From contig NZ_AULZ01000001.1 of assembly GCF_000422545.1 (NCBI RefSeq), positions 372,001 to 436,000 on the forward strand: a stretch of 64,000 bases of DNA, given 5' to 3'. The position numbers were made by a program, and so were the translations under genes. Origin of the DNA: Desulfocurvibacter africanus subsp. africanus DSM 2603. GTDB taxonomy: Bacteria > Desulfobacterota > Desulfovibrionia > Desulfovibrionales > Desulfovibrionaceae. Below are positions 12,034-61,585 of the stretch, one piece after another (within the stretch, counting starts at the first letter, position 1; each line of letters starts with the position of its first letter). The notes beneath the pieces are model-generated. The model was not told the DNA's origin. It searched no databases and was given only the letters and a program-made list of their open reading frames with translations.

Positions 12034-12071
12034 GAAAAAAAAGAGAGGGTCTCTTGGGGAGACCCTCTCTT
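12034..12071 (-). terminator. Intrinsic terminator after the EF-hand gene cluster
   Basis: AAGAGAGGGTCTC (12041-12053) and GAGACCCTCTCTT (12059-12071) pair perfectly over 13 bp. On the minus strand the hairpin is followed by a run of U (A-run at 12034-12042). It lies about 120 bases past the stop of the last EF-hand gene. Confidence 0.88.
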
Positions 12072-12194: not shown

Positions 12195-12626
12195 TTATTC
12201 CGCCATGCTCTTGTCCTCGGGCTCAATCTTGCGCGGGTCGTTCACGTCGTAGGTCTGCTCGTCCCATACGTCGGCGCCGGAGCCCCGTTTCTCCTGCACA
12301 GGCTCCTCGGTCGCCATGGGCTCTTCGGTGGCCATCGGCTGCTCTGCCGCGGCGCCTGTCTCGCCCGCCTCATAGGCGCGCCATTCGCTCTCGCTTATGG
12401 AGCCGTCAGCGTTCTGATCGATGACGCCGAAGAGCTGTGTCTTGTCGCCCTCCTCCAGGCTATACTCATCGAACTCACCCTGGGAGACGACGCCGTCGCC
12501 GTCCTGATCCATCTGCTCGAACAGGGTGACGCCTTCCTGTTGCGTCCCGGCCGGGACATCTGCGTAAGCGCTGCCCGCGAGAAGCAGTGCAGCCACAGCC
12601 GCAGTCGCAATGACGGATACCTTCAT
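12195..12626 (-). CDS. Secreted EF-hand protein 1
   Basis: The 143-residue protein has a Sec signal peptide (VIATAAVAALLLAGSAYA) and two canonical EF-hand loops: DQDGDGVVSQGEF and DQNADGSISESEW. They are joined by EYSLEEGDKTQLFGVI. The tail is acidic, with MATEEP repeats, and ends GADVWDEQTYDVNDPRKIEP. This tail is almost identical in the next gene. Ca2+ ligands (D1, D3/N3, D5, G6, E12) are intact in both loops. CAAGGGAGGTCCGA precedes the ATG. It is most similar to EF-hand protein 2, so these two are a recent duplication. Its location should be periplasmic or extracellular. The partner and process are unknown. Confidence 0.88.
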   Translation of the reverse strand: MKVSVIATAAVAALLLAGSAYADVPAGTQQEGVTLFEQMDQDGDGVVSQGEFDEYSLEEGDKTQLFGVIDQNADGSISESEWRAYEAGETGAAAEQPMATEEPMATEEPVQEKRGSGADVWDEQTYDVNDPRKIEPEDKSMAE

Positions 12627-12749
12627 TCGGACCTCCCTTGTTGAGTGTTTGCAACGCCCTGCCCCTCCCCTGGGGCCGAACGTATCTATTGACTGCCTGC
12701 CCGCCAGCGAGGCGAACCGGCTTGCCGATTACCAGACAGACCGCCGCCG

Positions 12750-13175
12750 TTATTCGGATTGTCCCTTCATGCTCTTGTCCTTGGGCTCGATCTTGCGCGG
12801 GTCGTTCACGTCATAGACCTGCTCGTCCCACACGTCGGCTCTGGAGCCCCGCTTCTCCTTCACGGGCTCCTCGACCGCCATGGGTTCCTCGGTAGCCATC
12901 GGCTGCTCGGCCTCCTGATAGGCGATCCACTCGTTCTCGCTGATGACGCCGTCGCCATTCTGGTCGATTACGGCGAAGAGTTGGGTTTTATCCTGCTCTT
13001 TCAGGCTATACTCCTGGAATTCGCTCTCGCTGACGATGCCGTCGCCATTCTGGTCCATCTGCTCGAACAGGCTGTACTCCTGCTGCTGCACGCCAGGCCC
13101 AATGTCGGCGAAGGCCAGGCCGGCACCGAGAAGCGATATCGCTACCGACGCCATGATGATAGTGAGCTTCCTCAT
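12750..13175 (-). CDS. Secreted EF-hand protein 2
   Basis: The 141-residue product starts at the ATG at 13175, which has GGGAGGT seven bases upstream. It has a signal peptide (IIMASVAISLLGAGLAFA), then EF loops DQNGDGIVSESEF and DQNGDGVISENEW linked by EYSLKEQDKTQLFAVI. An acidic tail MATEEPMAVEEPVKEKRGS leads into the shared DVWDEQVYDVNDPRKIEP ending. The gene is 66 bases after EF-hand 3 and 123 bases before EF-hand 1. With no promoter-like element of its own visible, it is probably cotranscribed with both. Function beyond Ca2+ binding is not apparent. Confidence 0.88.
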   Translation of the reverse strand: MRKLTIIMASVAISLLGAGLAFADIGPGVQQQEYSLFEQMDQNGDGIVSESEFQEYSLKEQDKTQLFAVIDQNGDGVISENEWIAYQEAEQPMATEEPMAVEEPVKEKRGSRADVWDEQVYDVNDPRKIEPKDKSMKGQSE

Positions 13176-13241
13176 ACGCTGACCTCCCTTGGATCGAGTA
13201 GTTTCTTGAACCGTCAATGAGCCATGGCGCACCGTCTACCG

Positions 13242-13673
13242 CTACTCGGGTTGTCCGGACATCTTTTCGTCCAGCATCCTGCGCTGCTTGTTCTCCACTC
13301 CGGGGCCGTAGGCGCGCTCGCTGGTCTCTTCGTCCTCCATGACACTTTTCTCTTCTGGGCTCATGGGCTGCTCCATGGCCGGCTCTTCGGCAGCCCTGGG
13401 CTGCACGGCTCCGCCTTCCTTGTAACTCTGCCACTCGCTCTCGCTGATCATGCCGTCGCCATTCTGATCTATGATGGCGAAGAGTTGGGTCTTATCCTGT
13501 TCCTCCAGACTATACCGCTCGAACTCGCCCTGGCTGACGGTGCCGTCCGCATTCTCGTCCATTTGCTCGAACAGGCCTGCTCCTTCCTGCTGCATGCCTG
13601 GAGCGACATCCGCATGGCCGATTCCGGCGCTGAGGAGCAGGGTCAAAATTGAAAAAGCGATGATGTTCTTCAT
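13242..13673 (-). CDS. Secreted EF-hand protein 3
   Basis: The ATG at 13673 gives 143 residues, with GGAG six bases upstream and a signal peptide (FSILTLLLSAGIGHA). EF loops are DENADGTVSQGEF and DQNGDGMISESEW with the same ERYSLEEQDKTQLFAII linker. The C-terminal tail differs from proteins 1 and 2: it is rich in Glu, Pro and Met and ends in NKQRRMLDEKMSGQPE. A promoter-like element at 13741-13768 lies upstream. It probably heads a 3-2-1 transcript ending at the terminator at 12034-12071. Confidence 0.88.
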   Translation of the reverse strand: MKNIIAFSILTLLLSAGIGHADVAPGMQQEGAGLFEQMDENADGTVSQGEFERYSLEEQDKTQLFAIIDQNGDGMISESEWQSYKEGGAVQPRAAEEPAMEQPMSPEEKSVMEDEETSERAYGPGVENKQRRMLDEKMSGQPE

Positions 13674-13740
13674 GGACAACTCCATTTTGTTAAATGAGTG
13701 GAGCCCCCCTGCATGGCCTGCGCTATCCATGCTCTTCAAA

Positions 13741-13768
13741 TTTAGCAGCTTCGCTGTTTCTGCCACTG
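13741..13768 (-). promoter_or_regulatory. Shared promoter-like element upstream of EF-hand 3
   Basis: On the minus strand it reads CAGTGGCA, then a 16-base gap measured from CAGTGG, then GCTAAATT. The same arrangement, with AA(G/A)TGG and an AT-rich hexamer at the same distance, is found before EF-hand genes 4, 5 and 6. It looks like a -35/-10 pair or an activator site plus -10. Confidence 0.45.
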
Positions 13769-13947
13769 ATTTTCCCTGCACTATTCTCTCAACCACGTGG
13801 CCCCCACATGGGCGATAGTTTCCGCCGGTTCTAACGTTCAAGGGCTCCGGGTCTCCCCGAAGCCCTTGCCCTGCCCCTGTCGAGAGTGCGCGGTGTCAAT
13901 CAATCAGGACTCGTAGTCCATGCGGGCTTCCCAAGCCTGTGCGGAGG

Positions 13948-14715
13948 CTACTGGGCAGTGCTCCCGCTCTGCATCTTTTCCTGCCATTCCTGCTGGGTAA
14001 CCTGGCCATCCTGATCGGCGTCCAGAGTCGAAAAATCGTGCGTCATGGACGTATCCTGGGCCTTGTACTCATCGAACTCGCTTTGAGTGACCTGGCCGTC
14101 GGCATCCTTGTCCACCATCGAGAAATCGGCCTGCGCTTCACCGGCCGCGCCAGTATCAGTAGATCCCATCTCTTGGGTTCCGGTATCGCTGCTCATGGCA
14201 CCACCCGCCGCACCGCCAGCCGCTCCGCCGGCCGCCGCTCCGCCTTCGGTAGCGCCCATTTCTTGGGTGTCTGTTTCACCGGCGGGAGCTTCCATGCCTT
14301 CCTGGGTGCCCATCTCCTGCGTACCGGCATCACCGCCTTCGGTAGCGCCCATTTCCTGGGTGCCTGTCTCACCGGCGGGAGCCTCCATGCTCTCCTGAGT
14401 GCCCATCTCCTGCGTGCTTTCGCCTGCAGCGCCGCCTTCAAGACTACCGCTGCTGGATTCATAGGAGGTCAACTCTTCCTGAGTGATCTGGCCGTCCTGG
14501 TTCTGGTCAACGGTCGAGAACAGCTTGGACTTCTCCTGGTCTTCAAAGGAGTAGCCCTCGAACTCTTCCTGAGTGACCTGGCCGTCCTGGTTTTCGTCGA
14601 TCTTCTGGAAAAGACCCTGGTCCTGCTGCTCGCCACCGCCGCCGAAAATGCCCGCCTGGGCCACGCCGGCGAAGAGGAGGCCTGCCGTGCATGTAACAAA
14701 AAGAAGCTTTTTCAT
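13948..14715 (-). CDS. Secreted four-EF-hand protein 4 with internal repeats
   Basis: The 255-residue protein has a signal peptide (KKLLFVTCTAGLLFAGVAQA), then a first pair of loops DENQDGQVTQEEF and DQNQDGQITQEEL. A central low-complexity segment of about 100 residues follows, built on the repeated unit TQEMGTQE.MEAPAGET. A Gly/Ala-rich hinge comes next, then a second pair of loops DKDADGQVTQSEF and DADQDGQVTQQEW. All four loops keep their Ca2+ ligands. The mature start GIFGGGGEQQDQ is shared with protein 5. AAGGGATG precedes the ATG and a promoter-like element is at 14817-14844. The repeats make it a likely flexible tether between two Ca2+-binding lobes. Confidence 0.88.
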   Translation of the reverse strand: MKKLLFVTCTAGLLFAGVAQAGIFGGGGEQQDQGLFQKIDENQDGQVTQEEFEGYSFEDQEKSKLFSTVDQNQDGQITQEELTSYESSSGSLEGGAAGESTQEMGTQESMEAPAGETGTQEMGATEGGDAGTQEMGTQEGMEAPAGETDTQEMGATEGGAAAGGAAGGAAGGAMSSDTGTQEMGSTDTGAAGEAQADFSMVDKDADGQVTQSEFDEYKAQDTSMTHDFSTLDADQDGQVTQQEWQEKMQSGSTAQ

Positions 14716-14816
14716 CGGTACATCCCTTTGGTTGCAGGTTCCTATTCCGACGACCGCGCACCCCCGATAGCGCAGTATCCCGGAGCGACCTTGTAGCCGA
14801 TCCAGAGTATGCCGAG

Positions 14817-14844
14817 ATTATCAGCTTCCTTCCGGCATCCACTT
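14817..14844 (-). promoter_or_regulatory. Shared promoter-like element upstream of EF-hand 4
   Basis: The minus strand reads ACAAGTGG, 16 bases, then GATAAT, a good -10 hexamer. The AAGTGG box matches those before genes 5 and 6 in sequence and spacing. The putative start site is about 95 bases before the ATG. Confidence 0.5.
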
Positions 14845-15019
14845 GTTTTTTCAGCGTGGGAACTCTAAGCCATTGAATGTAGGACTTTGGACTATAGTCA
14901 GTCGGATAGCTGATCGCGTGGGTCCGTCGGCAGGCAAAATAAGCAGGCCCCCGAAGGAGCCTGCTTTGGAATTGTGTACGATCCAGACGCTCAGCCAAGC
15001 ACCTGGGGATGTGCCAATC

Positions 15020-15502
15020 CTACTGTCCAGAACCGGTTCCACTGGTCGAACCACCAGTGGTCATGCCGCCGGTTTCCCCTTCGGTCGTGCCATATTCCGG
15101 GGTACTACCTTGCGGAGAGCCCGGAGTGTCGCCTGTCATGGCCGGTGCATCGGAAGTGCCGTATTCCTGGGTATCGCCGGTGGTGGCGCCCGTCTCTTCC
15201 TGCGTGCCCATCTCCTGCATGGAACCGCTCGTCCCACCCTGCTTCTTCATCTGCCACTGTTGCTGGTCGATCTGGCCCTGGCCCTGCTCATCGAGCATGT
15301 TGAACAACTGAGTCTTGTCCTGTTCCTCGAAGTCGTAGTCGCTGAACTCTTGCTGGCTGATCTGGCCATCCTGGTTCTCATCGACCTTCTGGAAGAGGTT
15401 CTGGTCCTGCTGCTCGCCACCGCCGCCGAAGATGCCAGCCTGGGCAAATCCCGCGATGGAAAGGCCAGCCATGCATGTCAAAACGATAAGAATTCTTTTC
15501 AT
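15020..15502 (-). CDS. Secreted EF-hand protein 5 (second loop degenerate)
   Basis: The 160-residue protein has a signal peptide (RILIVLTCMAGLSIAGFAQA) and mature start GIFGGGGEQQDQNLFQKV, like protein 4. The first loop DENQDGQISQQEF is intact. The second, DEQGQGQIDQQQW, has Gln at positions 3, 5 and 12 and should not bind Ca2+ well. The last 70 residues are low complexity (Gly, Thr, Ser, Glu, with QEMGTQEE and TQEYGT units) and probably disordered. GGGACGGAG precedes the ATG. It is related to protein 4 by duplication followed by loss of the second lobe. Confidence 0.86.
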   Translation of the reverse strand: MKRILIVLTCMAGLSIAGFAQAGIFGGGGEQQDQNLFQKVDENQDGQISQQEFSDYDFEEQDKTQLFNMLDEQGQGQIDQQQWQMKKQGGTSGSMQEMGTQEETGATTGDTQEYGTSDAPAMTGDTPGSPQGSTPEYGTTEGETGGMTTGGSTSGTGSGQ

Positions 15503-15594
15503 TTGGCTCCGTCCCTTTGGTTAAGGTTGGAACTAAGCCGAGTGCGCTATCTGTCGCTCTCTCAACCATTCAGGCTTAGTTAGTGTAGTCTGAG

Positions 15595-15622
15595 TCTAAT
15601 GATCCTCGCCGGACTGCCACTT
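15595..15622 (-). promoter_or_regulatory. Shared promoter-like element upstream of EF-hand 5
   Basis: The minus strand reads AAAAACAAGTGGCAG, with ATTAGA sixteen bases after AAGTGG. The ACAAGTGG core is identical to that before gene 4. Confidence 0.45.
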
Positions 15623-15796
15623 GTTTTTAGAGCCTAGGACTTCTAATCCCTTCAGCGTAATTCTTGCGCCTACGACGTGTAGGCCGAGCGATCGAGTACT
15701 TTGTGGAGAGCCAAAAGATAGGCCTCACGCCAAGGCGAGAAGCCTGCTTATTTCGTTCTGGCAAGACGTTTGGTCGCGTCTGCATTCCGCCCGACA

Positions 15797-16141
15797 TCAT
15801 TCGGGCCTCGAGCCGTCTCCATTCGGGATCAAATCCGTGGAGGCTTGCGATTCCGGATTGTCCGTCTCGGACTCTTCGGCCCCGGAAAACGCCCACTCCT
15901 GCCAGCTTACCGTGCCGTTCTGGTCCGTGTCGATATCCGCGAACGGCGGTTGCGCTTCCGGATTATCCAGACAGTAGCCCTGGAACTCCAGTTGAGAGAT
16001 CCAGCCGTTCCGGTCGGCATCCATGCTCTCGAAAAGGCTCCAGTCGGCAATCCCCTCTTCGCCAGCGACATCGGCGGAATGAGCGGCGCCGACGAGAGAG
16101 AGCATCATGGCGCACGTTGCGGCGAAAGGCAGCCTGTACAT
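15797..16141 (-). CDS. Secreted EF-hand protein 6
   Basis: Starting at the ATG at 16141 (GGAAGGAA upstream) the protein is 114 residues. A signal peptide (LPFAATCAMMLSLVGAAHS) precedes loops DADRNGWISQLEF and DTDQNGTVSWQEW. Asn replaces Asp at position 5 in both loops, which is tolerated. It has a single cysteine (QGYCLDN). It is the most divergent of the six, but keeps the WSLFESMD lead-in (compare LFEQMD in proteins 1-3) and the final EW. It is the first gene of the array in transcription order. Confidence 0.85.
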   Translation of the reverse strand: MYRLPFAATCAMMLSLVGAAHSADVAGEEGIADWSLFESMDADRNGWISQLEFQGYCLDNPEAQPPFADIDTDQNGTVSWQEWAFSGAEESETDNPESQASTDLIPNGDGSRPE

Positions 16142-16250: not shown

Positions 16251-16270
16251 GTATTAAGACCCGATTCTTC

Positions 16271-16399
16271 TAAAACATTTTGCATTTCAGACGCTCCCTT
16301 CGGCGTTGACGGCGGAATTACATTCCGCCTACGCCTGCGGGGCGGCAAGCCATGCCGACGCATGGCTTGCAGAGCATTTTAAAAAGCAAAATGCTCTAA
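16271..16399 (+). repeat. Structured intergenic repeat, copy 3 (divergent)
   Basis: This copy keeps the GCAAGCCATGC/GCATGGCTTGC stem-loop and the AAAATGCTCTAA end but has changes on the left (TAAAACATTTTGCATTTCAG, and GGCGGAATTACATTCCGCC for the first stem). The stem is conserved by compensatory changes (GGCGGAAT/ATTCCGCC against GGCGCAA/TTGCGCC), which points to selection for RNA or DNA structure. Confidence 0.8.
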
Positions 16400-16545
16400 G
16401 CCGTCCGCAGTCGTGAAGCGCGCAACCGTCATCCATGAAGCAGCCTCGATTCCAATGCAAACCAGTCAAGGAAGCGCCTTGGCCAGCACAACAACCCGAC
16501 TTTTGAGCAAACATTTCTGGATGGACCCAACGCGTATCCGTGCGC

Positions 16546-16584
16546 AAAAAAAGAGCAAGCCCCTGTCGAGACAGGGGCTTGCTC
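16546..16584 (-). terminator. Intrinsic terminator of the DegP-like lipoprotein gene
   Basis: GAGCAAGCCCCTGTC (16553-16567) pairs perfectly with GACAGGGGCTTGCTC (16570-16584). On the minus strand it is followed by seven U (A-run 16546-16552). It lies about 40 bases after the stop of the gene at 16621. Confidence 0.9.
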
Positions 16585-16620
16585 CTTCCGCACGGGCGGG
16601 AGGCGGGATAAGCTATATGG

Positions 16621-46973: not shown

Positions 46974-47362
46974 TTATCAGCGTAGATTCTACGGCTAAGT
47001 GGCCCACGGTCTCATTATCATCCTGTGCGGATTGGCCGTAGATGCGGACACCCTTTGTGTCAGGCTGAGGAATGCGGTCTGCCTCCAGTGACCTGGATGG
47101 GACAAGGAAGGCTGCTCCGAGACTGGTCACAAATAGCAAGCAAGCGTCCCTGGCATTGACCAAGTGCAGACTAAACGGCTCGCCCCGAAGGGCAGACCGT
47201 TTGCTTTAGACTGACCTTCGAGGGCTGGGAAGCATTGCCGGCCCCTCCCTATTTCACCAGACTTCACAAGCCATAGGCGCAAATCCTTGTACTATCCTTG
47301 TACCAATGGAGAATATTGGGAGAGTGCGAAAACATGCAACAAAGGAGAATCTTCGTCATTCC
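46974..47362. other. Intergenic region before tRNA-Leu
   Basis: No gene is visible. An imperfect hairpin (AAACGG...CCGTTT enclosing GCCC/GGGC) lies at about 47173-47202 and could be a further terminator. Confidence 0.4.
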
Positions 47363-47449
47363 TGGTACCCGGGACCGGACTTGAACCGGTACGGCCTTGC
47401 GGCCGAGGGATTTTAAGTCCCTTGCGTCTACCACTTCCGCCACCCGGGC
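47363..47449 (-). tRNA. tRNA-Leu (anticodon TAA)
   Basis: The 87-base class II tRNA starts GCCCGGGTGGCGGAAGTGG on the minus strand. The anticodon loop is CTTAAAA, with a long variable arm (CGGCCGCAAGGCCG). The T arm is ACCGGTTCAAGTCCGGT and it ends CCCGGGTACCA. Confidence 0.94.
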
Positions 47450-47468
47450 AAGGATTTGGGGACCAAGA

Positions 47469-47495
47469 ATTATACTCGGCTTGGGATTGCGTCAA
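47469..47495 (-). promoter_or_regulatory. Promoter of tRNA-Leu
   Basis: The minus strand reads TTGACG, 15 bases, then a consensus TATAAT (47469-47474), about 20 bases before the tRNA. Confidence 0.65.
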
Positions 47496-47670
47496 TTCCT
47501 AAGCCGCGCCATTTTCTCACCCCCTGCGGACGATCATATGGATGGTCGAGACTCAGGGGCTTCGGAGTATATTCGCTTGCTTGTAAGCGAACCCAAAGTG
47601 GCTATCCTCGGTCGCGGCTATCCATTTTATATGCCTCCGGTGGGCCTTTCCAGACATTACACGGTAGGCC

Positions 47671-48444
47671 TCAAGGTGTTGCCGTGGTCGTGAGCTTGAC
47701 CACCGCCTTGCGCATGAAGAAACCCACGCTGCGCAGTGGAAAGTAGCGGACGTTGAGCAGCCAGTTCTCCCAGCGTTTGCGCTGCTTGCTGCGCGCATTG
47801 GAGCTTAACCCGCCGCCGTCGAAGACGCAGACGGGTACATCGGTGTAGGCCAGCCGGAATCCGTGCCTGAGCACTGAGCGCAGAAGCCACTCGCGGTCCG
47901 CGCAAATCGCGTAGCGCATGTCGAAACCGCCGATGGCCTCGAACACTCGCCGCGAGGCGAACATGGCCTGGTGGCACACGGTGTCGTAGAGCAGATCCCG
48001 AGGGTCGAGGATGCGCGTCCTAACCAAGCGTTCCTCGGCCAACCAGGCGTTGTACACGTTGCCGTACACGATGTCGGCACGCCCGGCCGCGAGCTGCGCG
48101 GCCACGCGCGAGAGTATGTCCGGCGCGGCCAGCCAATCCCCGCAGTTGAGAAAATAGACGTACTCGCCCCGGCACAGGCTCAAGGCCTTGTTCATGCCAT
48201 CATAGACGCCCTTGTCCGGCTCGCTCCTGAACATGGTCACGTGCGCCGCATTGCGCTCGACGATCTGCATGGTGCCGTCGGTGGAGGCCCCATCCAGGAT
48301 CAGGTACTCGTACCCGCTGAAATCCTGTATGGCCATGGAGCGGATGGTCCGCTCCAGGCTGTCGGCCCCGTTCCTCACGACGGTCACAATGCTGAAGAGT
48401 GGGCCGGAGTTGCCTTTTTCGGCCCATTGCCGCGCTCTGTGCAT
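47671..48444 (-). CDS. Glycosyltransferase family 2 protein
   Basis: The 257-residue GT-A protein begins FSIVTVVRNGADSLERTIRS, followed by YLILDGASTDGTMQIVERNA (the DGxSTDGT nucleotide-sugar site). It has YDGMNKALSLCRGEYVYFLN with CGD (DxD-like). This layout is that of the WcaA-like subgroup. Cytosolic, with no membrane segment. GGAGTAAGTGC precedes the ATG. It is the last gene of the polysaccharide locus. Confidence 0.9.
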   Translation of the reverse strand: MHRARQWAEKGNSGPLFSIVTVVRNGADSLERTIRSMAIQDFSGYEYLILDGASTDGTMQIVERNAAHVTMFRSEPDKGVYDGMNKALSLCRGEYVYFLNCGDWLAAPDILSRVAAQLAAGRADIVYGNVYNAWLAEERLVRTRILDPRDLLYDTVCHQAMFASRRVFEAIGGFDMRYAICADREWLLRSVLRHGFRLAYTDVPVCVFDGGGLSSNARSKQRKRWENWLLNVRYFPLRSVGFFMRKAVVKLTTTATP

Positions 48445-48483
48445 GCACTTACTCCATAATCCGGCGGACAGGCTCCGCCTTGG

Positions 48484-49377
48484 TTAGCGCCGAGTTCCCC
48501 GAAGGGTCCGCATCCGCCAGGTGTCGGTCTCCCGGCAGTATGTCACGGCCGGGGCTGTCAGTCCGCACAGACTGATGCGATCCAAGCCTCGCACGCGGGA
48601 CATGGCCCGGCTGGCGAGCATGCGCGCCTTGTCCAGATGACTGCCGGTCACCATGGCGTCCATTTCGCGCTCATAGCGCTCGAACGTCGCTGTTTTCTGG
48701 TTCCCATGCCTGCGGAAGGCCGCCAGCAAGGTGTCCACGAGCACAAGGTCGGTCTCGCGGGCGAAACGGGTCCATAGATCGAAGTCGGCTGCATAGCGAT
48801 AGCGAGTGTCGAGCCCGCCGGCCTTGTCCCACAATGAGCGCCGCCAGAAGGTGGACTCCTGCTGGATGAACCTGTTGTCGCGGCCGTTGTAAAGCCCACG
48901 CTGGACCATGCGCCTGGGAAACGGCCCGACCATGTCCAGCTCCACGAGCATGCCCCGGCCGTTAAGTTTGATCTGATTGGAGGTCAGCCATTCCACCTGC
49001 GGGAACCGGCCGAACACCGTGGCCACGGTGGCCAGCGCGCCTGGCAGGTACATGTCATCGCTGTTGAGCCAGGCCATGACGCCGCCCGACGTCTCGGCGA
49101 AGCCCGCGTTGATGGCCTCGTATTGGCCGCCGTCCCGGCCCGAATCGTAACGGAAGGACACGCCCTGGCAGCGACAAGGCAGCTCCCCGCTGTCCACCAT
49201 GCTCTTGAAGCGCGCCAGGATCTCTACGGAGCCGTCCGAGGAGCCGCCGTCCTTGACCAGATAGTCGATGCGGAAATCGCCCTCCTGGGTCAGCACGCTC
49301 TCCAACGTCTTGGGCAGGAAAGCAGCCTGGTTGTAGGAAGGCGTGACTATGGCGAAAACAGGCTCGAACACGCTCAT
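48484..49377 (-). CDS. Glycosyltransferase family 2 protein
   Basis: The 297-residue protein has FAIVTPSYNQAAFLPKTLES, VKDGGSSDGSVEILARFKS and GGVMAWLNSDDMYLPGALAT (the NSDD metal-binding motif). The acceptor part is WRRSLWDKAGGLDTRYRYAA. This is the typical family 2 order. It overlaps the upstream gene by four bases (ATGA). Confidence 0.9.
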   Translation of the reverse strand: MSVFEPVFAIVTPSYNQAAFLPKTLESVLTQEGDFRIDYLVKDGGSSDGSVEILARFKSMVDSGELPCRCQGVSFRYDSGRDGGQYEAINAGFAETSGGVMAWLNSDDMYLPGALATVATVFGRFPQVEWLTSNQIKLNGRGMLVELDMVGPFPRRMVQRGLYNGRDNRFIQQESTFWRRSLWDKAGGLDTRYRYAADFDLWTRFARETDLVLVDTLLAAFRRHGNQKTATFERYEREMDAMVTGSHLDKARMLASRAMSRVRGLDRISLCGLTAPAVTYCRETDTWRMRTLRGTRR

Positions 49378-51017
49378 GGCCGAGCCTGCCCGTGTGCGGA
49401 TTCATCCAGCAGCTCGGAGTACCAGTCCAGGTACTCGCGGGCCATGCGCTCCAGACCGTGACGCTCCTGGGCCGTGCGCGCCGCGCGCTCGCCCATGGCT
49501 CTGCGCCGATCTGCATCATGCAACAGTCTGCAAATACCGGCAGCCATGGCATCGGCATTGCCAGCCGGCACGAGGTAGCCGCTACGGCCGTCATCGATCT
49601 GCTCGGGCACGCCGCCCACGGCCGTGGCCACCACGGGCGTGCCGCAGGCCTGAGCCTCCAGCACCGTGTTCGGGTAATTGTCCTGCAAGGCAGCGTGCAG
49701 GAACACGTCCGCCGCTTGGTAATGCCGGGCGACCTGGGCCATGTCGGACACGAACCCCGCCGAGCGTATGGACCAGTTCTCGCCGCGTTCCTCGGCCATG
49801 TCGCCGCCCAGGCAAAGCAGGACGTGCTTGTCCGCAGTGCCCCGGCCCACGTCGGCGGCCGCCTTGAGAAAGGCTTGTCTGGCCGTGCCGAAGCCCTTGC
49901 GTGCGTTGTCCTTGCCGCCATGAGCCATGTACAGCACAACCTTGTCGCTGGCCGTCAGGCCCAGGGCGGCCCTCACGTCCTGCCGGTTACCGGATCGGTT
50001 ATCGGACCGGCCATCCAGTCGATAGCTCGGCCGGAAAACGTGCAGATCAATGCCGTTGCGCACCACCCTGGCCTGCGGCTCAAAGGGTGGGTAGGCCTGT
50101 AGCAGCCGATCCAGGAGCCAACGGCTCGGCGCTGCCACGTGCAGCTTGGCCCGGCGCAGAATGTTGCGCTTGCGCTTCCAGTTGAAGCCTGTTGCGTCAC
50201 GCTTCACTGACGGGTAGGCCTGCAGGTCGGGACAGTTTCCGCAGCCGAAGCGGAAACGCTCGCAGCCCATGGCATAGGCGCAGTGACCGGTCACGATCCA
50301 TTCGTCGTGCATGGTCACGACAGTCGGCAGCGACTGACTCAGGACCGGCAACTCGCGCAGGTCGAACCAGCCGCTGTGCAGCACGTGCGCGTGCAGGATG
50401 CCGGGCCTGAGCGGAGGCATTTCCAGCATTTCCCGCGTGGCCGGATAGTGGAAATCCTCGCGGCCCGCGTGCGCGTCAAGGAAGCGGCTCGGCTCGGCCA
50501 GGTAGGACAGCCCGCGCGCCACGCCCGGCAGATAGCGCACCCGGCGCCGGATAAGCTCGTGCTCTAGCCTGCGCAGAGGCCCGGCCCATGAACCTCGCCT
50601 GCCGTCGTTGGGCAGGGCCATAACCCGCGGGTCGTCGCTGAACTTGACACCCACGGCCATGAACGCCTCAAGGCCGGCCGCGAGATATGCCTGGTGCAGT
50701 TGCCAGGCTATGCGCGCCGCGCCGCCGCGCGTGTCGAAGACATTGGCCTGCAGGATGGCCGGCAGGCGGGGTGTCTGATCATTGGACACTATACGCCTCT
50801 TGGATGCCCTGGAAGCCGGGAACGTTTCCGGTTCTTTGGTTGCTCTGGCCGCCTTGGACGCTGTGGCCGCCTTGGCGGCCTTGGGCTGTCTGGGCGTTTT
50901 TGCTTCCTTGGAAGTCTTGGTAGCTTTCGACGCCTTGGCTCCCTTGGGAGCCTTGGACGACTTAGGCCCTTTGGAAACCCTGGCGGCTTTGTTGGAATCC
51001 TTGCCTGCCGTGCTCAT
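49374..51017 (-). CDS. Glycosyltransferase family 4 protein with a histone-H1-like Lys/Ala/Ser N-terminal tail
   Basis: The ATG at 51017 (GGGAGGCAGCC upstream) overlaps the flippase stop by four bases and gives 547 residues. Residues 1-80 are low complexity, made of KASKA/KAAKA/TKTSKEAK-type repeats with very high Lys, Ala and Ser. Then the GT-B fold begins at LPAILQANVFDTRGGAARIA (the GGAA-type N-terminal motif). It has VVTMHDEWIVTGHC, then CERFRFGCGNCPDLQ, a Cys-rich insert as in a known GT4 subgroup. The donor site is LEAQACGTPVVATAVGGVPE. The tail is unusual for this family. Confidence 0.85.
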   Translation of the reverse strand: MSTAGKDSNKAARVSKGPKSSKAPKGAKASKATKTSKEAKTPRQPKAAKAATASKAARATKEPETFPASRASKRRIVSNDQTPRLPAILQANVFDTRGGAARIAWQLHQAYLAAGLEAFMAVGVKFSDDPRVMALPNDGRRGSWAGPLRRLEHELIRRRVRYLPGVARGLSYLAEPSRFLDAHAGREDFHYPATREMLEMPPLRPGILHAHVLHSGWFDLRELPVLSQSLPTVVTMHDEWIVTGHCAYAMGCERFRFGCGNCPDLQAYPSVKRDATGFNWKRKRNILRRAKLHVAAPSRWLLDRLLQAYPPFEPQARVVRNGIDLHVFRPSYRLDGRSDNRSGNRQDVRAALGLTASDKVVLYMAHGGKDNARKGFGTARQAFLKAAADVGRGTADKHVLLCLGGDMAEERGENWSIRSAGFVSDMAQVARHYQAADVFLHAALQDNYPNTVLEAQACGTPVVATAVGGVPEQIDDGRSGYLVPAGNADAMAAGICRLLHDADRRRAMGERAARTAQERHGLERMAREYLDWYSELLDESAHGQARP

Positions 51018-52558
51018 GGCTGCCTCCCGGAGAGAAGCCTGAAGCGGGCGAACAAAGGCGAGGCATATTCCACGGCCTGGCCCAGTTCGTCGCGGTTTAT
51101 GGCCCCCGTGAAGCAGGCCAGGAGCAGGAAGAGGGTCGAAGTGGCGGCCATGACCGCCAGCAGGGACAGCATGCCCGTGGCCAAGGGCGCCAGGAGCAGA
51201 TAGGCCAGCACTGCGGCCGCGGCCCCGGCGGACAGCGGCGGCAGGTAGGAACGCCTGACAAGGGAAAGCAGATCGTAGCCCAGCACGCGGTTGTTCGCGT
51301 ACCAGACGAACACCGGCCCCACCAACAGGTTGCTGCCCAGGAAGGCCAGGGCCACGCCGCTCACGCCCAGGGCCTTGCCCAGAGGATAGACCAGGGCCAG
51401 GTTGATCAGGGCCGTGCAGATCGAGAACAGGCCCGTGACCTTGGGCCTGCCCATCCCGTCTACCACGATGGACGGGATGTTGGTGAAGGCGTCCACCAGC
51501 AGCGCGGCGGTGATGATCGTGACCACCAGGCCGGCCTGGGCCGCGAACTCCTCGCCCATCCAGAAGCCCAGGAAGCGGTTGCCGAAGAGCATGAGCGGCA
51601 GGCAGACGCATATGGCGATGGTGGTGATGAGCCGGGAGGCCTTGAGGTACAGGGCCACGATGGCCTTGTGGTCCTGCTTGCCCTGGAACCCGCTGACCAC
51701 CGGCAGGATGACCGAGCCCACGAGATAGGTCACCGTCATAAGCTTGCGCACGAGACTGAAGGGCACCACGTAGTAGGTCACCCAGGACAGGCCGAGAATG
51801 GCGCCCGTGAGCAGGCGGTCGGCCTGGAAACGCAGCACGCCCGACAGGCGGCTAAGGGATGAGTACAGGCCGAAGCGCAGGATGGTCTTGAGCGGCCCGG
51901 GCCGAAAGACCGGCCGCAGGCGGATGCCGGGCAGGAGCCGCCGGCAGATGACCATGTAAGTCAAAACACCCAGCAGGGGCACGGCCACGTTGACCAGCAC
52001 GACCTCCAGCAGGCCGTAACCCAGGATCAGCAGGCCGACCATGGACAGGGTCGTCAGCAGGTTCATGGCCATGGTCACCCTGCTGCTCACGTCGTAACGG
52101 TTGAGGCCCCAAGGTATGGACTGCATGGCCGTGACGAGCATGGTCAGCACGAAGCCCACCGAGCCGACCCGGAAGGCGGCCATGGCTGTTTCCTGCAGCT
52201 CCGGGGGCACCTTGAGGAAGCGCGTGGCCAGCACGTCGGCCAGGCCGAAGATGACCGCGCCGCCGGCCAGGCCCAGCAGCAGGTAAAGCAGCATGGTCGA
52301 ACCTATGATGTCGTTGACCTGCGCCAGGTCGCCCTTGGCGCGGTACTCGGCCACGTACTTGGTCATTGCCTGGCCCAGGTTCAACTCCAGCATGGCGAAA
52401 TAGCCGATTACGGCCAGGATGAGCACAAGGATGCCGTAGGATTCGGTGCCCAGCCTGGCCACGATGTAAGGCAGAAAAACAAAATTGATGCCGATGGAAA
52501 AGACCCAGCTCGCGGTGTTGAACAGGGCGTTGTGCAAGGTCTGATGTTTTTTGGCCAT
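51014..52558 (-). CDS. Polysaccharide flippase (Wzx-like, MOP/PST family)
   Basis: The 514-residue inner-membrane protein has about 12-14 helices. It opens LFNTASWVFSIGINFVFLPY, then LGTESYGILVLILAVIGYFA, the MATE/PST-type start. Further helices include MVGLLILGYGLLEVVLVNVA. It should move lipid-linked repeat units across the membrane. AAGGAGCTTGA precedes the ATG. It follows the O-antigen ligase-like gene by 14 bases. Confidence 0.88.
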   Translation of the reverse strand: MAKKHQTLHNALFNTASWVFSIGINFVFLPYIVARLGTESYGILVLILAVIGYFAMLELNLGQAMTKYVAEYRAKGDLAQVNDIIGSTMLLYLLLGLAGGAVIFGLADVLATRFLKVPPELQETAMAAFRVGSVGFVLTMLVTAMQSIPWGLNRYDVSSRVTMAMNLLTTLSMVGLLILGYGLLEVVLVNVAVPLLGVLTYMVICRRLLPGIRLRPVFRPGPLKTILRFGLYSSLSRLSGVLRFQADRLLTGAILGLSWVTYYVVPFSLVRKLMTVTYLVGSVILPVVSGFQGKQDHKAIVALYLKASRLITTIAICVCLPLMLFGNRFLGFWMGEEFAAQAGLVVTIITAALLVDAFTNIPSIVVDGMGRPKVTGLFSICTALINLALVYPLGKALGVSGVALAFLGSNLLVGPVFVWYANNRVLGYDLLSLVRRSYLPPLSAGAAAAVLAYLLLAPLATGMLSLLAVMAATSTLFLLLACFTGAINRDELGQAVEYASPLFARFRLLSGRQP

Positions 52559-52572
52559 TCAAGCTCCTTGGG

Positions 52573-54078
52573 CTAGGTGGTGCGCGCTCCGGAGAGGCTT
52601 TCGGCCCTCTCCGGCATGGGTTCGCTGAACGCCTGACCCTCCAGGGCGGCCCTGCGCAGCTCCAAAGCCACCAGGTTCCTGATGAGCACGAGGAACAGCA
52701 CCAGCATGTAGGACTGGTGCCGGTACGAAAAAACCGGGCCGGTCAGGAGCATGGGCAGCCAGACCCCGAACACCGCGGCGAGGCCGGCCACCAGCGGCCG
52801 CGCTGGACTGTCCGGCATGTCACGCCAGTAGCGACCGAGCCGGCGCATCGTATCGAAACCCAGCCAGAGAATGAACAGCAGTCCGGGCAGGCCCAGCTTC
52901 ATCCAGATATATAGGAAACCGTTATGCACGACCTCCGTGGGCTGGTTCTCCTCAAGCCAGCCTCCCACCAATTCGCTCGGCACCGGAGAATGCTTTGAAC
53001 CTATGCCCAGCCCTCGCACCGGCTGCTCCAGAAGGTCCTGCAACGTGTACCAAGCCTCCAGCTTGTGGTGCAGGTTGGAGTGCTGGCGCGTGTCGAAGAA
53101 GGTGGTGAAGCGCGCGCCGATACGCGCCAGCTCCCCGGACAAACCTCGTTCGCCATAAACCGCGCCCATGATGGCCAAGGGCACTGCCAGGGCCAGGCCC
53201 AGCAAGGCGTAGCGCACGAAACGCGCTCGCGCGATGCGGTCCGACCAGCGCCAGAGCAGCAGCCCGCCCAGGACCAGGCCGAGCCAGTGCGCGCGGCGGA
53301 AGGCGAACAATAGCGCGCCCAGCAAGGGCAGCGCGCCCAGCACAAGGAAGGCGTGCTGGCGTCCGCGCATTCTGCCGGTGGCCAGCAGTGCGGCCGCCAG
53401 GAACAACATGACCGAAAAGGCCATTAGTTCAGCCGAGTCGCGGCTGACGATGGTGTAGCTCTCGTAGATGAAGCCGCGTCCAGCAGCGAAGTAGGCCAAC
53501 AGCAGGGCCGCTTTGACCGCACAGGCAGCGAAGAAAATGGCCAGGAATCGCCCGATGTGCTGGTAGGAGTCCAGGATGTTGGCGCAGATGAAGAAGCACA
53601 GCAGCGGGTAGATCCAGCGTGTGGAGTCCGTCTGCAGGTCTTCCAGGGGCCAGCCGCCGGCTTGGCCCGTCAGCCAGCCAAGAGCGATAATCCCGGCGAA
53701 AGCCACGATCCCCCAGGTCGAGACCAGGGATTTGCGCCGTTCCAGCAGAACCCTGCGAAAAAAGGTCAGCAGGGCCAGAAACAACAGGAAGCTGACCGTG
53801 GCCGGCGGAAATCCCGGCGGGTCCGGGTCGAGGATGGTCAGTGTCCTGCCGGGAATGCCATCGACCGTATCGGTGATGAACACGATCATGGCGAAAAAGA
53901 TGCCCAGGCCGTACTCCGGCCTGAACATGGCCACGGCCGCCGCGGCTATGCCGATGGCCCCGCCCAGTGCGGCCTTGAGCGGCAGGAAGGCCAAGCCCGC
54001 CGCCGTCATCAGGCCGAGAAAGGAGATTGCCGCCAAGCCCAGCCCCTGGCGCGCGGCCGTCGCCTCGCGTGTAGTCAT
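52573..54078 (-). CDS. O-antigen ligase/polymerase-like membrane protein (WaaL-type)
   Basis: The 501-residue protein has about 11 helices and a large periplasmic loop typical of the Wzy/WaaL superfamily. RRAHWLGLVLGGLLLW is the conserved R-x-x-W/G region before the loop. The loop contains WYTLQDLLEQPVRGLGIGSK and NQPTEVVHNGFLYIWMKLGL with the conserved H (E..HNxFL). It polymerises or ligates the glycan at the outer face of the inner membrane. AAGGGAGGATTGCGGTC precedes the ATG. Confidence 0.85.
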   Translation of the reverse strand: MTTREATAARQGLGLAAISFLGLMTAAGLAFLPLKAALGGAIGIAAAAVAMFRPEYGLGIFFAMIVFITDTVDGIPGRTLTILDPDPPGFPPATVSFLLFLALLTFFRRVLLERRKSLVSTWGIVAFAGIIALGWLTGQAGGWPLEDLQTDSTRWIYPLLCFFICANILDSYQHIGRFLAIFFAACAVKAALLLAYFAAGRGFIYESYTIVSRDSAELMAFSVMLFLAAALLATGRMRGRQHAFLVLGALPLLGALLFAFRRAHWLGLVLGGLLLWRWSDRIARARFVRYALLGLALAVPLAIMGAVYGERGLSGELARIGARFTTFFDTRQHSNLHHKLEAWYTLQDLLEQPVRGLGIGSKHSPVPSELVGGWLEENQPTEVVHNGFLYIWMKLGLPGLLFILWLGFDTMRRLGRYWRDMPDSPARPLVAGLAAVFGVWLPMLLTGPVFSYRHQSYMLVLFLVLIRNLVALELRRAALEGQAFSEPMPERAESLSGARTT

Positions 54079-54123
54079 GACCGCAATCCTCCCTTGTGCG
54101 AGCCGCTGTTCAAAGCAGTGAAC

Positions 54124-55353
54124 CTATTCACGGACATTCTGCGTGGCATGCATGACTCCTCGCGCGACCAGCAGGTCGCGATAGATGGCCACGAGCTTTT
54201 CCTGCTCGCTGGCCCAAGCGTGCCGCAGCGCCACTACCCGTCCCAGCCCAAGGATGGACTGGCGCTCGGCCGGGTCGTCCATGGCCCGGCGGATGGTTTG
54301 CGTCAGGCTGCTGACGTTGCCAGGCTCGAAGAAGAACAGCGTGCCGTCGTTGAAGTAGTCCCGCACGCCGCGCGTGTCTGGAGCTACCGCGGGCACGCCC
54401 TTGGATAAGTATTCGAGAATGCGCGTGGGCAGGTTCAACTCCGTGAACCTGTAGCGCTTGTTGGGAATCACGCCGAGATCCGCCTCGGGAATGACCCGCG
54501 CGATCTCCTCCAGGGCCACGCGGCCGCGATAGTCGACGCTTTCCTCCAGGCCCAGCTCGTCGCGCCTGCGCAGGAACTCCTGCACGAAATCACCCTCGCC
54601 GTAGACCACCAGCTCCACGGCCCGGCCTTCGGCGCGTAGCGCGGCCACGGCTTGCAGCAACGAATCCAGTCCGTGCCGTTCCACGATGGTGCCGTGGTAC
54701 ATGAGCCTGAAAGGCCCTTCTCCCACGGGCCGCATCCGCGGTTCGGGCCAATCCCCGAACACGCTCTCGTCAGGCGAATTCAGGACCACGCCCATGCGTT
54801 CGACCGGGCAGCCGCGCGAGACGAACAGCACCCGGAAGGCCTCGTTGGCCGTTATGCAATGGTCGGCGTAGTTCATGGCCCAGCGCTCGATGCCGAGCAG
54901 ACCGCGTATGGCCGGATGGTTTTCCGCCAAGCCGTATTTGCTCATGTAGACCTCGGGCATGGGATCGTGCAGGTCCAGGACGACCTTGGCGCCCATGAGC
55001 TTCGGCACGGCTGCGGCGGCCACGATGAAGTCTGGCATGTTGTGCGCGTGCACCACGTCCCAACGCCTGGACGGCGCGTGGCGGGCCAGGTGCGCCGCGG
55101 CCAGGCCGATGAAGCTCGCGTATTGATAGATGTAGCGCAGCTTGCCGGTGCGCTTGCGGCGCACGGGCAGTCGGTGCACGTTAACGCCTTTGACCACCTC
55201 GCGGGCGGGTTCCCCTGGCTCGCGCAGGCAGACGATATCCACCTCCATGCCCCGGCGTTCCAGGGCCTCGGCGTCCCGGCGCACGCGCGGGTCGTCTGGG
55301 TAATTGGAGAACACGACCATGCAGACCTTGCCCTGCAGCAGGCCGGCGGTCAT
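54124..55353 (-). CDS. Glycosyltransferase family 4 protein
   Basis: The ATG at 55353 overlaps the upstream stop (ATGA) and gives 409 residues. It has VCMVVFSNYPDDPRVRRDAE, WDVVHAHNMPDFIVAAAAVP, VVLDLHDPMPEVYMSKYG and RLMYHGTIVERHGLDSLLQA. The donor domain ends NLPTRILEYLSKGVPAVAPD (ExxxxG.P). This fits the GT4 subgroup common in exopolysaccharide loci. It is cytosolic and peripheral. Confidence 0.9.
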   Translation of the reverse strand: MTAGLLQGKVCMVVFSNYPDDPRVRRDAEALERRGMEVDIVCLREPGEPAREVVKGVNVHRLPVRRKRTGKLRYIYQYASFIGLAAAHLARHAPSRRWDVVHAHNMPDFIVAAAAVPKLMGAKVVLDLHDPMPEVYMSKYGLAENHPAIRGLLGIERWAMNYADHCITANEAFRVLFVSRGCPVERMGVVLNSPDESVFGDWPEPRMRPVGEGPFRLMYHGTIVERHGLDSLLQAVAALRAEGRAVELVVYGEGDFVQEFLRRRDELGLEESVDYRGRVALEEIARVIPEADLGVIPNKRYRFTELNLPTRILEYLSKGVPAVAPDTRGVRDYFNDGTLFFFEPGNVSSLTQTIRRAMDDPAERQSILGLGRVVALRHAWASEQEKLVAIYRDLLVARGVMHATQNVRE

Positions 55354-56270
55354 CTCTGCACCCCCATGCCGCGCCAAAAGAGCGCGCGCAGCCGCGTAAG
55401 CTGTTCGCGGCGGTGGTATGCGGCCACATTCTCGGGGATGCGCTCCTCGGGGTTGCCCGCGCAGTAGCCAGCCAGCCTGGTCAGGCTGCCCACGACGTAA
55501 GGCTTCTCGGCCAGTCGATAGAGGATCTTGACCGCCTCGTAGGCCGGATGGGTGCGCAGGGCGCTGTCGGCTTGGCCCTGGCGGAAGCGCGCCGCGAGGA
55601 TGCCCTTGTTGCCGCCCGTGCGCTTGTGGTGGTGCACGACGAGATCCGGGAATGCCCTCACCTGCCAGCCTTTCATGCGCGCCACGATCTCGGCCAGGGC
55701 GTCCTCGCTGCCGCACTTGAGCGGCATGAGCCCGCCGATTTCCTCGAAGCACTCGCGGCGGAAGAACTGCACGGCGCCGCACACGCTCCAGGGCTTGGAC
55801 AGCACCCGGTAACGCCGCTTGCCGTCATGGTCGTAGCGCCGCACGCCGCCGGCCAGCCCCAACTTCGGCTCCCGCAGCATGCGCCGCATGACCGTCTCGT
55901 AGTAGGTCTGGCCCAGGGTGATGTCCGCGTCCAGGTTGCCGATGAACTCGTAGTCCACGCCCGCCAACTCCCGCACTCCCGCGCTGAAGGCCCGCACCTT
56001 GGAGCCGAAGTTGTATGTCGCGTCGGACGATCGCGAGACAAGGCGCAGGAACGGCAGCCGCTTGGCCATATCGCGCACCACTCCCGCCGTATTATCCGTG
56101 CTCCCGTCGTCCACCACGACCCAACGTTCGGGCAGCCGCGTCTGGCGCGCCACGGCCGCGATGGTCCGGCCGATGGTGCTTTCTTCGTTACGGGCCGGCG
56201 TGACCAGCGCGTAGCGCATTGGCGTTTCCATATCCGTCTCGTTATCCATGAGCATTGCCAAAGCCAGCAT
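55350..56270 (-). CDS. Glycosyltransferase family 2 protein
   Basis: The ATG at 56270, with GGGAAGGAGAC upstream, gives 306 residues. A later ATG at 56219 would give MRYALVTPARNEE. The GT-A motifs are YALVTPARNEESTIGRTIAA, VVVDDGSTDNTAGVVRDMA and FIGNLDADITLGQTYYETVM (DxD). The acceptor end has CFEEIGGLMPLKCGSEDALA. This is a typical exopolysaccharide family 2 enzyme. It precedes the family 4 gene with a four-base overlap. Confidence 0.9.
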   Translation of the reverse strand: MLALAMLMDNETDMETPMRYALVTPARNEESTIGRTIAAVARQTRLPERWVVVDDGSTDNTAGVVRDMAKRLPFLRLVSRSSDATYNFGSKVRAFSAGVRELAGVDYEFIGNLDADITLGQTYYETVMRRMLREPKLGLAGGVRRYDHDGKRRYRVLSKPWSVCGAVQFFRRECFEEIGGLMPLKCGSEDALAEIVARMKGWQVRAFPDLVVHHHKRTGGNKGILAARFRQGQADSALRTHPAYEAVKILYRLAEKPYVVGSLTRLAGYCAGNPEERIPENVAAYHRREQLTRLRALFWRGMGVQR

Positions 56271-56413
56271 GTCTCCTTCCCTCCTCCATGTGCGGTGCTC
56301 GACGCGCCGCTTGCGTTGCGCGCTTGCGGCCGGGCGCAAGCGCCGGGCGGCGCACAAAGGCAAATGAGGCGCGTCAGGCCGATCCCGGCAGGCCACGCGC
56401 GAACTTCGCGGCC
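56271..56413. other. Spacer within the polysaccharide locus
   Basis: This GC-rich 143-base gap contains several short inverted repeats (around 56300-56355) and no gene. It is the longest gap in the locus and could hold a processing site. Confidence 0.35.
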
Positions 56414-57670
56414 TCAGGCATTTCCGGCCGACCCCTTGGCCCGCTGATCCTTGCCGAGTCCGTCCAGCAACTGCCGGACAATGGCCAGGGGCGTGCGCAG
56501 GATGATCATCAGGTCGAACCACAGGGAGAAATTGTTGGCGTAGAAGATGTCCAGGCGGGCCATCTCCTTGAAGGTCAGCCTGTTCTTGCCGCTGACCTGC
56601 CACAGGCCGGTCATCCCCGGCGTGCAGTCCAGCCTGCCCCGGCACCATCGATGGTATTTGGCCACTTCATAGCCGATGGGCGGCCTCGGCCCCACGAGAC
56701 TCATGTCGCCGCGCATCACATTCAGGAGTTGGGGTAGTTCGTCGATGCATAGCTTGCGCAGCAGCCTGCCGCCGCGGATGATGCGCGGGTCCCTGGCGTC
56801 CAGCTTGGTCATGGGCGCCTCGCCGTCGGTGATGACGCGCGTCATGTAGTCCTGGTGACGTGATTCGCCCAGATCCACGGCCATTGTCCGGAATTTGAGC
56901 ATGGTGAACGGCCTGCCCCCCCGGCCTATGCGCTCCTGGCGGAAGAACACCGATCCGGGAGATACGCTCCGTATCCATAGGCCCGCGAGGAGCATGAAGG
57001 GCGAGGCCACGAGCAACGCGAGGCCCGAGCCTGCGATATCCAACAGTCGTTTCCAGGCCGGATGCGGCTTGGCGAACAGGCCTTGGCAGGCGTCAATGCG
57101 CTTCGCGCCGATGCTTTCGGTCTCGCTTGCGGCCTCAGGGGCCTTGTCTTTTTGCCCGCTTTCCTGGCTTTTGGGACGGCCGGAACCTTCTCCGCCATCG
57201 CGGCCGGGGTAGGCGAACACGACATAGCGAAAGCGCTCCCGCTGACCATTGCCCAACACGGATTCGGCGAAGATGCGCGCCGAGGCCCCCGAAGCACCGT
57301 AGAGGATCACCCCGAGACGGCCGCCTTCGCACCAGCCGGCCTCGTCCGAAAGCCTGGCCCGGTCGACGACCACGCGGGCCAGCTTGCCCAGGCCGTTGAC
57401 CGAGTTATTGGAAGGCGAACCCGGCTCCTCGCCAAGCTTGACGTCGGACTCGCCTTCAGGCTCGCCGTCGAGCTCGCCCTCGGATTCAAAGGTCACCAGG
57501 GCGAAGGGATGGCCGCACCGCTCGGCCCGTTGCCGACTCTTGTCCAATGCCCGCTTGAAGTTCCGCAAGTCGAGAAGGCCGGGCACCATTGGGAGTGCGC
57601 CCGCCTTTCCGTGAGTGATTCGCCTGAACATGTCGGTAATTAGCACTATGAAGCCCTCGCCTCGTTGCAT
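56414..57670 (-). CDS. Polyprenyl-phosphate sugar-phosphotransferase (bacterial sugar transferase)
   Basis: The 418-residue protein has a divergent acidic N-terminal half, with GEPEGESDVKLGEEPG. Its C-terminal half is a bacterial sugar transferase (PF02397-type): WKRLLDIAGSGLALLVASPF (membrane re-entrant helix), FFRQERIGRGGRPFTMLKFR and TMAVD. LRKLCIDELPQLLNVMRGDM, then SLVGPRPP, and CTPGMTGLWQVSGKNRLTF follow. It starts glycan assembly by placing a sugar-1-phosphate on undecaprenyl phosphate. The N-terminal half lacks the usual four-helix block. The ATG at 57670 has no ribosome site; a GTG at 57646 has GAGGG upstream and is an alternative start. Confidence 0.88.
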   Translation of the reverse strand: MQRGEGFIVLITDMFRRITHGKAGALPMVPGLLDLRNFKRALDKSRQRAERCGHPFALVTFESEGELDGEPEGESDVKLGEEPGSPSNNSVNGLGKLARVVVDRARLSDEAGWCEGGRLGVILYGASGASARIFAESVLGNGQRERFRYVVFAYPGRDGGEGSGRPKSQESGQKDKAPEAASETESIGAKRIDACQGLFAKPHPAWKRLLDIAGSGLALLVASPFMLLAGLWIRSVSPGSVFFRQERIGRGGRPFTMLKFRTMAVDLGESRHQDYMTRVITDGEAPMTKLDARDPRIIRGGRLLRKLCIDELPQLLNVMRGDMSLVGPRPPIGYEVAKYHRWCRGRLDCTPGMTGLWQVSGKNRLTFKEMARLDIFYANNFSLWFDLMIILRTPLAIVRQLLDGLGKDQRAKGSAGNA

Positions 57671-57691
57671 GCGTTGCCGCCAAATGCGTGC

Positions 57692-58444
57692 TCAAATCCG
57701 TTCATAAATGAACTGCGGGATGGGATAATCCCGCTTGTTGAGCAGCACGCCGAGGATGTTCCCGCCCGTGGCGCGGATGCGGTTGGCCACGGTGTCCGCC
57801 ACCTGCCAGCGGGTTCTGCCTGCCTCCACCACAAGCACCACTCCGTCGCTCAGGCCGGACAGGGACAAGCCGGCTGGGCTTTCCGCCGCCGCAGGCGAAT
57901 CCACCAGCACAAGGTCGAAGGTGGAGCGCACGGAATCGAAGAAGTCCTTGGCCTTACCCTGGTTGTGCATGAGCTGGTGGGGACGCCCACGGCCCTTGAC
58001 CTTGGTTACGTAGAGCGAGGTGTCCGCGATGCGGAAGAAGGACGCCGGAGCCAGCTCGCCCTTGCCATCTCCCGAGCCGTTGCCGTCCTCGGAATCCACG
58101 CTTTTCTCGGGCCGTATGTCGAAATGGTCGGCCTGCGCCGAGCGCTCATGGTTCGAATCCAGCAGGAGCACCTTGCGCCCCAGCACCAACGTGGTCACTT
58201 TGGCGAATTCCCGGCACAACTCCGTTGATCCCTCGCCAGGCAAGGCGCTGACGAACTGCACTACATGGCCGCCCTTGCCGGGCAGGAGCGTGGTGATGTT
58301 CTGGTGCAGGCCGAGCAGCGTCTCCTTGAGCGACTCGCTCAACCTGCCGAGTTTGAGGTTCTGCCGGCCAGGGCCGGTCAGGGCAGGCCTGCCCTCTTGC
58401 GCTATCTTTTCCGACCGCTCCAGGGCTTCATAGATTCTGGTCAT
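57692..58444 (-). CDS. CpsD/BY-kinase-like protein lacking the Walker A lysine
   Basis: The 250-residue protein aligns with the cytoplasmic domain of bacterial tyrosine kinases. It has the N-terminal MTRIYEALERSEKIA signature, VVQFVSALPGEGSTELCREF where PGEGKST is expected (residues 66-76), KVLLLDSNHE (Walker A') and FDLVLVDSPA (Walker B). The invariant Lys of Walker A is missing, and there is no Tyr-rich C-terminal cluster (it ends PQFIYERI). It probably regulates export through protein contacts rather than as a kinase. GAGAGG precedes the ATG. Confidence 0.85.
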   Translation of the reverse strand: MTRIYEALERSEKIAQEGRPALTGPGRQNLKLGRLSESLKETLLGLHQNITTLLPGKGGHVVQFVSALPGEGSTELCREFAKVTTLVLGRKVLLLDSNHERSAQADHFDIRPEKSVDSEDGNGSGDGKGELAPASFFRIADTSLYVTKVKGRGRPHQLMHNQGKAKDFFDSVRSTFDLVLVDSPAAAESPAGLSLSGLSDGVVLVVEAGRTRWQVADTVANRIRATGGNILGVLLNKRDYPIPQFIYERI

Positions 58445-58467
58445 GGCGTCCTCTCAGCTTCCAAGGT

Positions 58468-61562: not shown

Positions 61563-61585
61563 GTTGTTTCTCCATTATCCGTGGC

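Follow-up and report, generated by a model that had tools for sequence, protein, structure and literature searches.

A six-gene array of putatively exported EF-hand proteins within a wider EF-hand expansion in Desulfocurvibacter africanus

Characterised exported EF-hand proteins

The role of extracytoplasmic EF-hand proteins in bacteria is mostly open. The nearest characterised proteins to those considered here, by architecture, are EfhP (PA4107) of Pseudomonas aeruginosa and CaBP of Caulobacter vibrioides, both of which have been described as sensors (PMC9132961, PMC13171946). EfhP has two canonical EF-hands, is predicted to be periplasmic, binds Ca2+ with a Kd of 13.7 uM, and increases in hydrophobicity with Ca2+ (PMC9132961, PMC4053335). 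CaBP is a small (133 aa), Sec-exported periplasmic protein with three EF-hands that is tied to SigV, and its gene overlaps the sigV promoter (PMC13171946). Calsymin (CasA) of Rhizobium etli is secreted and carries repeated EF-hand domains, as cited in PMC10574481 and PMC9132961; according to the same citations, these repeats lie inside one protein, which is expressed during symbiosis.

The Desulfocurvibacter africanus subsp. africanus DSM 2603 locus described here encodes six such proteins (E1 to E6) side by side in the window (the whole 64,000-nucleotide stretch of DNA that was analysed). Similar to EfhP and CaBP, these are EF-hand proteins of an exported type, and they share with calsymin the repetition of EF-hand domains, although in the array the repetition is spread over several genes. 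In contrast to the array proteins, Ca2+ binding and a regulatory role have been measured for EfhP; a tandem array has not been described for EfhP, nor a tandem array or tail family for CaBP. The array is composed of a known kind of protein, at an uncommon scale of expansion.

Two named families were considered and rejected as identities for these proteins. Lanmodulin (LanM) is likewise a small exported EF-hand protein, and E4 matches its model weakly, at 28.1 bits against a cut-off of 135 bits (NCBIfam NF053806; the other five proteins are unlisted). In LanM, adjacent EF-hands are 12-13 residues apart (PMC11845868), and at least one EF-hand must have Pro as the second loop residue; in the array, 18 residues separate the loops of every pair (a start-to-start spacing of 30), and the second residue of every loop is Q, E, K, A, or T. 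For the XopAW calcium-binding effector family (NCBIfam NF041410, cut-off 120 bits), the array proteins score 28-63 bits.

The array and its proteins

The array (12195-16141, minus strand) comprises six intact, adjacent ORFs with undisrupted frames, most of them with a GGAG/GGGA-type ribosome-binding site in front. Each of the six translations exceeds a gathering cut-off for Pfam EF-hand models; the best E-values run from 1e-18 (E4, the strongest) to 3e-7. The initial annotation of six consecutive minus-strand EF-hand genes with signal peptides is borne out. The features of the locus are as follows:

12041..12071, minus strand: strong intrinsic terminator 3' of E1, 13-bp stem and T run (-24.4 kcal/mol, z -5.3)
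12195..12626, minus strand: E1, signal peptide, EF-hand pair (DQDGDGVVSQGE, DQNADGSISESE), acidic tail
12750..13175, minus strand: E2, signal peptide, EF-hand pair (DQNGDGIVSESE, DQNGDGVISENE), tail 86% identical to that of E1
13242..13673, minus strand: E3, signal peptide, EF-hand pair (DENADGTVSQGE, DQNGDGMISESE), acidic tail of a different kind
13840..13870, minus strand: stable hairpin without T run, between E4 and E3 (-33.8 kcal/mol, z -5.1)
13948..14715, minus strand: E4, signal peptide, two EF-hand pairs (4 loops) with a ~110-aa low-complexity linker between them
14941..14966, minus strand: terminator-like hairpin with short T run, between E5 and E4 (-21 kcal/mol, z -3.0)
15020..15502, minus strand: E5, signal peptide, canonical loop DENQDGQISQQE, degenerate loop DEQGQGQIDQQQ, EMGTQE motif in tail
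15797..16141, minus strand: E6, signal peptide, EF-hand pair (DADRNGWISQLE, DTDQNGTVSWQE), short acidic tail; the most divergent member
16545..16589, minus strand: strong terminator of the upstream protease-like gene, array boundary (-32.8 kcal/mol, z -6.3)

The locus is bounded and isolated by strong terminators. Gaps of 66 and 123 nt separate E3, E2, and E1, which may form a single transcription unit, and E4 and E5 share upstream sequence (78% over 36 nt). No sigma-70 promoter was recognized by consensus at the array, and an Rfam search returned no match. Neighboring genes encode a class III cytochrome c, a trypsin-like protease whose N-terminus is lipoprotein-like, and, downstream of the array, a glycosyltransferase and a cytidylyltransferase; none is a clear partner, and no sigma factor, kinase, or transporter is encoded within the array. 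Upstream of E6 (~16268-16398) lies a ~130-bp hairpin-rich intergenic repeat (z -7.1), which looks like a REP/MITE-type element. With 40 of 366 first-look candidates scored, it has at least some 40 other occurrences genome-wide, almost all of them 88-99% identical.

The six proteins contain 13 canonical loops (four in E4, one in E5, and two in each of the other proteins), all of which carry D1, D/N3, D/N5, G6, I/V8, and E12. The second loop of E5, DEQGQGQIDQQQ, has no Asp/Asn at positions 3 and 5 and no Glu at position 12, and Pfam counts one EF-hand stretch in this protein; the loop is a degenerate relic with its ligands lost. Loop features of the EF-hand superfamily were otherwise found in all six proteins, and the earlier counts of two, two, two, four, two, and two hold except for E5, which has one canonical and one degenerate loop, for a total of 13 canonical loops and not 14. 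The lead-in previously given as LFxxMD is present in the array proteins in the wider form LFxx[MIV]D. The linker reported for proteins 1-3 is likewise present (YSLEEGDKTQLF, YSLKEQDKTQLF, and YSLEEQDKTQLF), with the exact string in protein 3 only.

At the N-terminus of each protein is a hydrophobic segment that runs up to an A-x-A-like site (AYA/D, AFA/D, GHA/D, AQA/G, AQA/G, and AHS/A), read by eye as a Sec-type signal peptide; no lipobox Cys was found at this segment in any of the six. With a pI of about 4.1 and a net charge of -18 to -44, the mature proteins are acidic, and neither a catalytic domain nor a surface anchor was seen in them. In an AlphaFold2 model of E2, residues 34-92 are predicted to form an EF-hand pair (helix-loop-helix, with short loop strands at residues 47-49 and 77-79; block pLDDT 73-91), followed by a disordered tail (pLDDT <50). 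In the E4 model, the N-terminal pair is predicted with fair confidence and the C-terminal pair weakly, with a disordered linker of ~110 residues; both models were built on a six-row alignment of related sequences only. The best Foldseek matches in the PDB are EF-hand domains, with modest E-values (6.5e-3 at best), and phmmer matched EF-hand proteins in the PDB with E-values down to 5e-7.

Expansion in the genome and the histories of cores and tails

The host genome has 25 matches to PF13202 (EF-hand_5), nine in the array and 16 elsewhere, vs. a maximum of 10, and mostly 0-6, in 198 other genomes of the family. About eleven further EF-hand genes occur outside of the array; ten have signal-like N-termini, and several are adjacent to one another. 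At one of these loci (contig C40; L029, 5009-7710), three adjacent genes encode EF-hand proteins of 529, 111, and 195 aa; the 529-aa protein carries the EMG[AT]xE motif. A 326-aa protein (contig C39; L030, 4391-5371) has six EF-hand loops and is without a signal peptide, and long EF-hand frames of similar size occur in many relatives.

With an array model as query, many family genomes, chiefly those of genus g52, yielded a related secreted EF-hand protein, about one apiece, and almost nothing was recovered outside of the family. These proteins (e.g., L059, L066, and L068) resemble those of the array in having a signal-like N-terminus and one EF-hand pair, and match the model at E-values down to 3e-14, but they number about one array-like match per genome, and their loop spacing is mostly 28 rather than 30. 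The neighborhoods of these single genes revealed no clear functional link (gene calls there were often antisense ORFs). In the synteny check proposed with the initial annotation, neither 58 relatives (E2 as query) nor 296 other class-level genomes (array model) yielded a comparable array; this collection contains no other species of the host's genus. Adjacent EF-hand pairs are present in relatives (G010, G009, and G015; L036, L037, and L040), and these pairs, together with the additional genes in the host genome, contradict the earlier statement that EF-hand proteins occur singly in bacteria. Given these pairs and the 25 matches vs. at most 10 in the family, the array is a large local case of a genome-wide EF-hand expansion, unusual but not unprecedented. 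That the array is an expansion of exported EF-hand paralogues is almost certain, in a lineage that has multiplied such proteins well beyond its family.

Cores and tails seem to have separate histories. Core identities are similar among the first three proteins (E1-E2 67%, E2-E3 68%, and E1-E3 70%), and tail identities at the amino acid level are not (86, 40, and 29%, respectively); tails diverge faster than cores for E2-E3, E1-E3, and E4-E5. A tree of the short cores groups E1 with E2 (97/96); it has too few columns to place E4-E6 firmly, and it is compatible with a single origin of the array (74/80). Between E1 and E2 the synonymous distance falls from 1.09 for the cores to 0.46 for the tails, a contrast that is suggestive only (Fisher p 0.08), and the simplest reading, not proven, is that tail conversion or exchange has occurred between E1 and E2. 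The earlier view of proteins 1 and 2 as the closest pair is therefore correct for the tails and the core-tree pairing, and not for core identity, where the three pairs are nearly equal. Tandem duplication with tail diversification is likewise upheld, whereas simple stepwise duplication is not, because the tails and cores of E1 to E3 disagree. The cores have dN/dS values of 0.13-0.35 at a dS of about 0.9-1.6, and so the array genes are under purifying selection; these values and the undisrupted frames rule out a decaying locus.

The low-complexity linker of E4 contains four EMG[AT]xE motifs, including a 93-bp tandem repeat. Searched as a DNA pattern, the codons for E-M-G-[AT]-x-E occur 10 times in the genome (reversed control, 1): four times in E4, once in E5, twice in a 268-aa EF-hand protein on contig C19, twice in the 529-aa protein on C40, and once elsewhere. 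Nine of the 10 lie within EF-hand proteins, and the C19 and C40 loci are unlinked to the array; as the motif was picked after reading the tails, this count describes exclusivity to EF-hand proteins and is no independent test. The highest count in 198 relatives is five, and the pattern is not enriched in the genomes with family two-EF-hand proteins; among the genomes searched, enrichment is found only in the host. The C19 protein resembles E5 at its mature start (ALFGIG vs. AGIFGGG) and near its end (GMTTGGS), and as a query it gave two weak matches only in 148 relatives. It is conceivable, although we consider it a long shot, that exported EF-hand modules across the genome share an interchangeable disordered tail of this type, swapped between paralogues by recombination, which would target or assemble them into one extracytoplasmic Ca2+-dependent structure.

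Possible roles of the array

Our preferred reading, held tentatively and at somewhat less than even confidence, combines a lineage-specific tandem expansion of soluble, Sec-exported EF-hand proteins with a joint role outside of the cytoplasm, either as a Ca2+ sink or as a binder of the envelope or matrix. Each mature protein consists of a compact EF-hand pair (two in E4) followed by an acidic disordered tail, would be released to the periplasm or outside of the cell, and would bind two Ca2+ per canonical pair; duplication would raise capacity, and the tails would set where, or to what, each protein attaches. Multiplication without partner genes favors a sink or structural role, and the variety of tails keeps sensing and matrix bridging in play. 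Pure buffering, however, needs neither tail diversification nor a common tail motif, and a periplasm open to the medium would gain little from a buffer: in E. coli, periplasmic Ca2+ mirrors or exceeds external Ca2+ (quoted in PMC9132961). Codon usage gives no sign of high expression (CAI percentiles 11-73), and is uninformative on this point because the ribosomal reference genes themselves do not stand out. Of the "dedicated extracytoplasmic calcium-binding system" first proposed, the secreted EF-hand paralogues stand, while a dedicated system is unproven, with no partner gene inside the array.

The main rival to the sink or binder reading is sensing, in which the EF-hand pair would change shape on Ca2+ and signal via a membrane partner, with different tails fitting different partners. 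The architectural similarity to EfhP and CaBP and the faster divergence of tails than cores are consistent with such a role, but the array has no adjoining gene for a sensor kinase, a sigma factor, or an anti-sigma factor, six similar sensors would be unexpected, and one site is lost in protein 5; we regard sensing as rather unlikely. Adhesion of the acidic proteins, via Ca2+ bridges, to exopolysaccharide or carbonate minerals is suggested by the acidic low-complexity tails, the downstream glycosyltransferase and cytidylyltransferase, and, for E2 and E4, a match to the SPARC Ca-binding domain that exceeds the gathering cut-off. The ~47000-64000 region of the window, with ORFs for a flippase, glycosyltransferases, export and chain-length proteins, and a deacetylase, all read by eye, also looks like an exopolysaccharide locus. 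This region is 30 kb away, though, the SPARC match is limited to the EF-hand part, the proteins have no visible anchor, and a literature search found no direct precedent, so that a role as matrix or mineral modulators is unlikely. Recurrent tandem duplication and tail conversion could also have amplified the genes neutrally or nearly so, without added function, as the E1/E2 tail-conversion signature, the internal repeat in E4, and the degenerate loop in E5 might indicate; purifying selection on the cores over such large synonymous distances, with all six frames intact, makes this highly improbable. Together with the same tail motif on several unlinked proteins, the array offers a natural gene-dosage case for proteins that may hold, sense, or bridge Ca2+.

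Other EF-hand genes in the host genome (L033, 4105-4410, on C2, and L034, 3911-4399, on C5) adjoin genes for a heavy-metal P-type ATPase and a CusA-like RND pump, and in one relative (G144; L074) an EF-hand gene lies near homologues of both (pump names from sequence reading).
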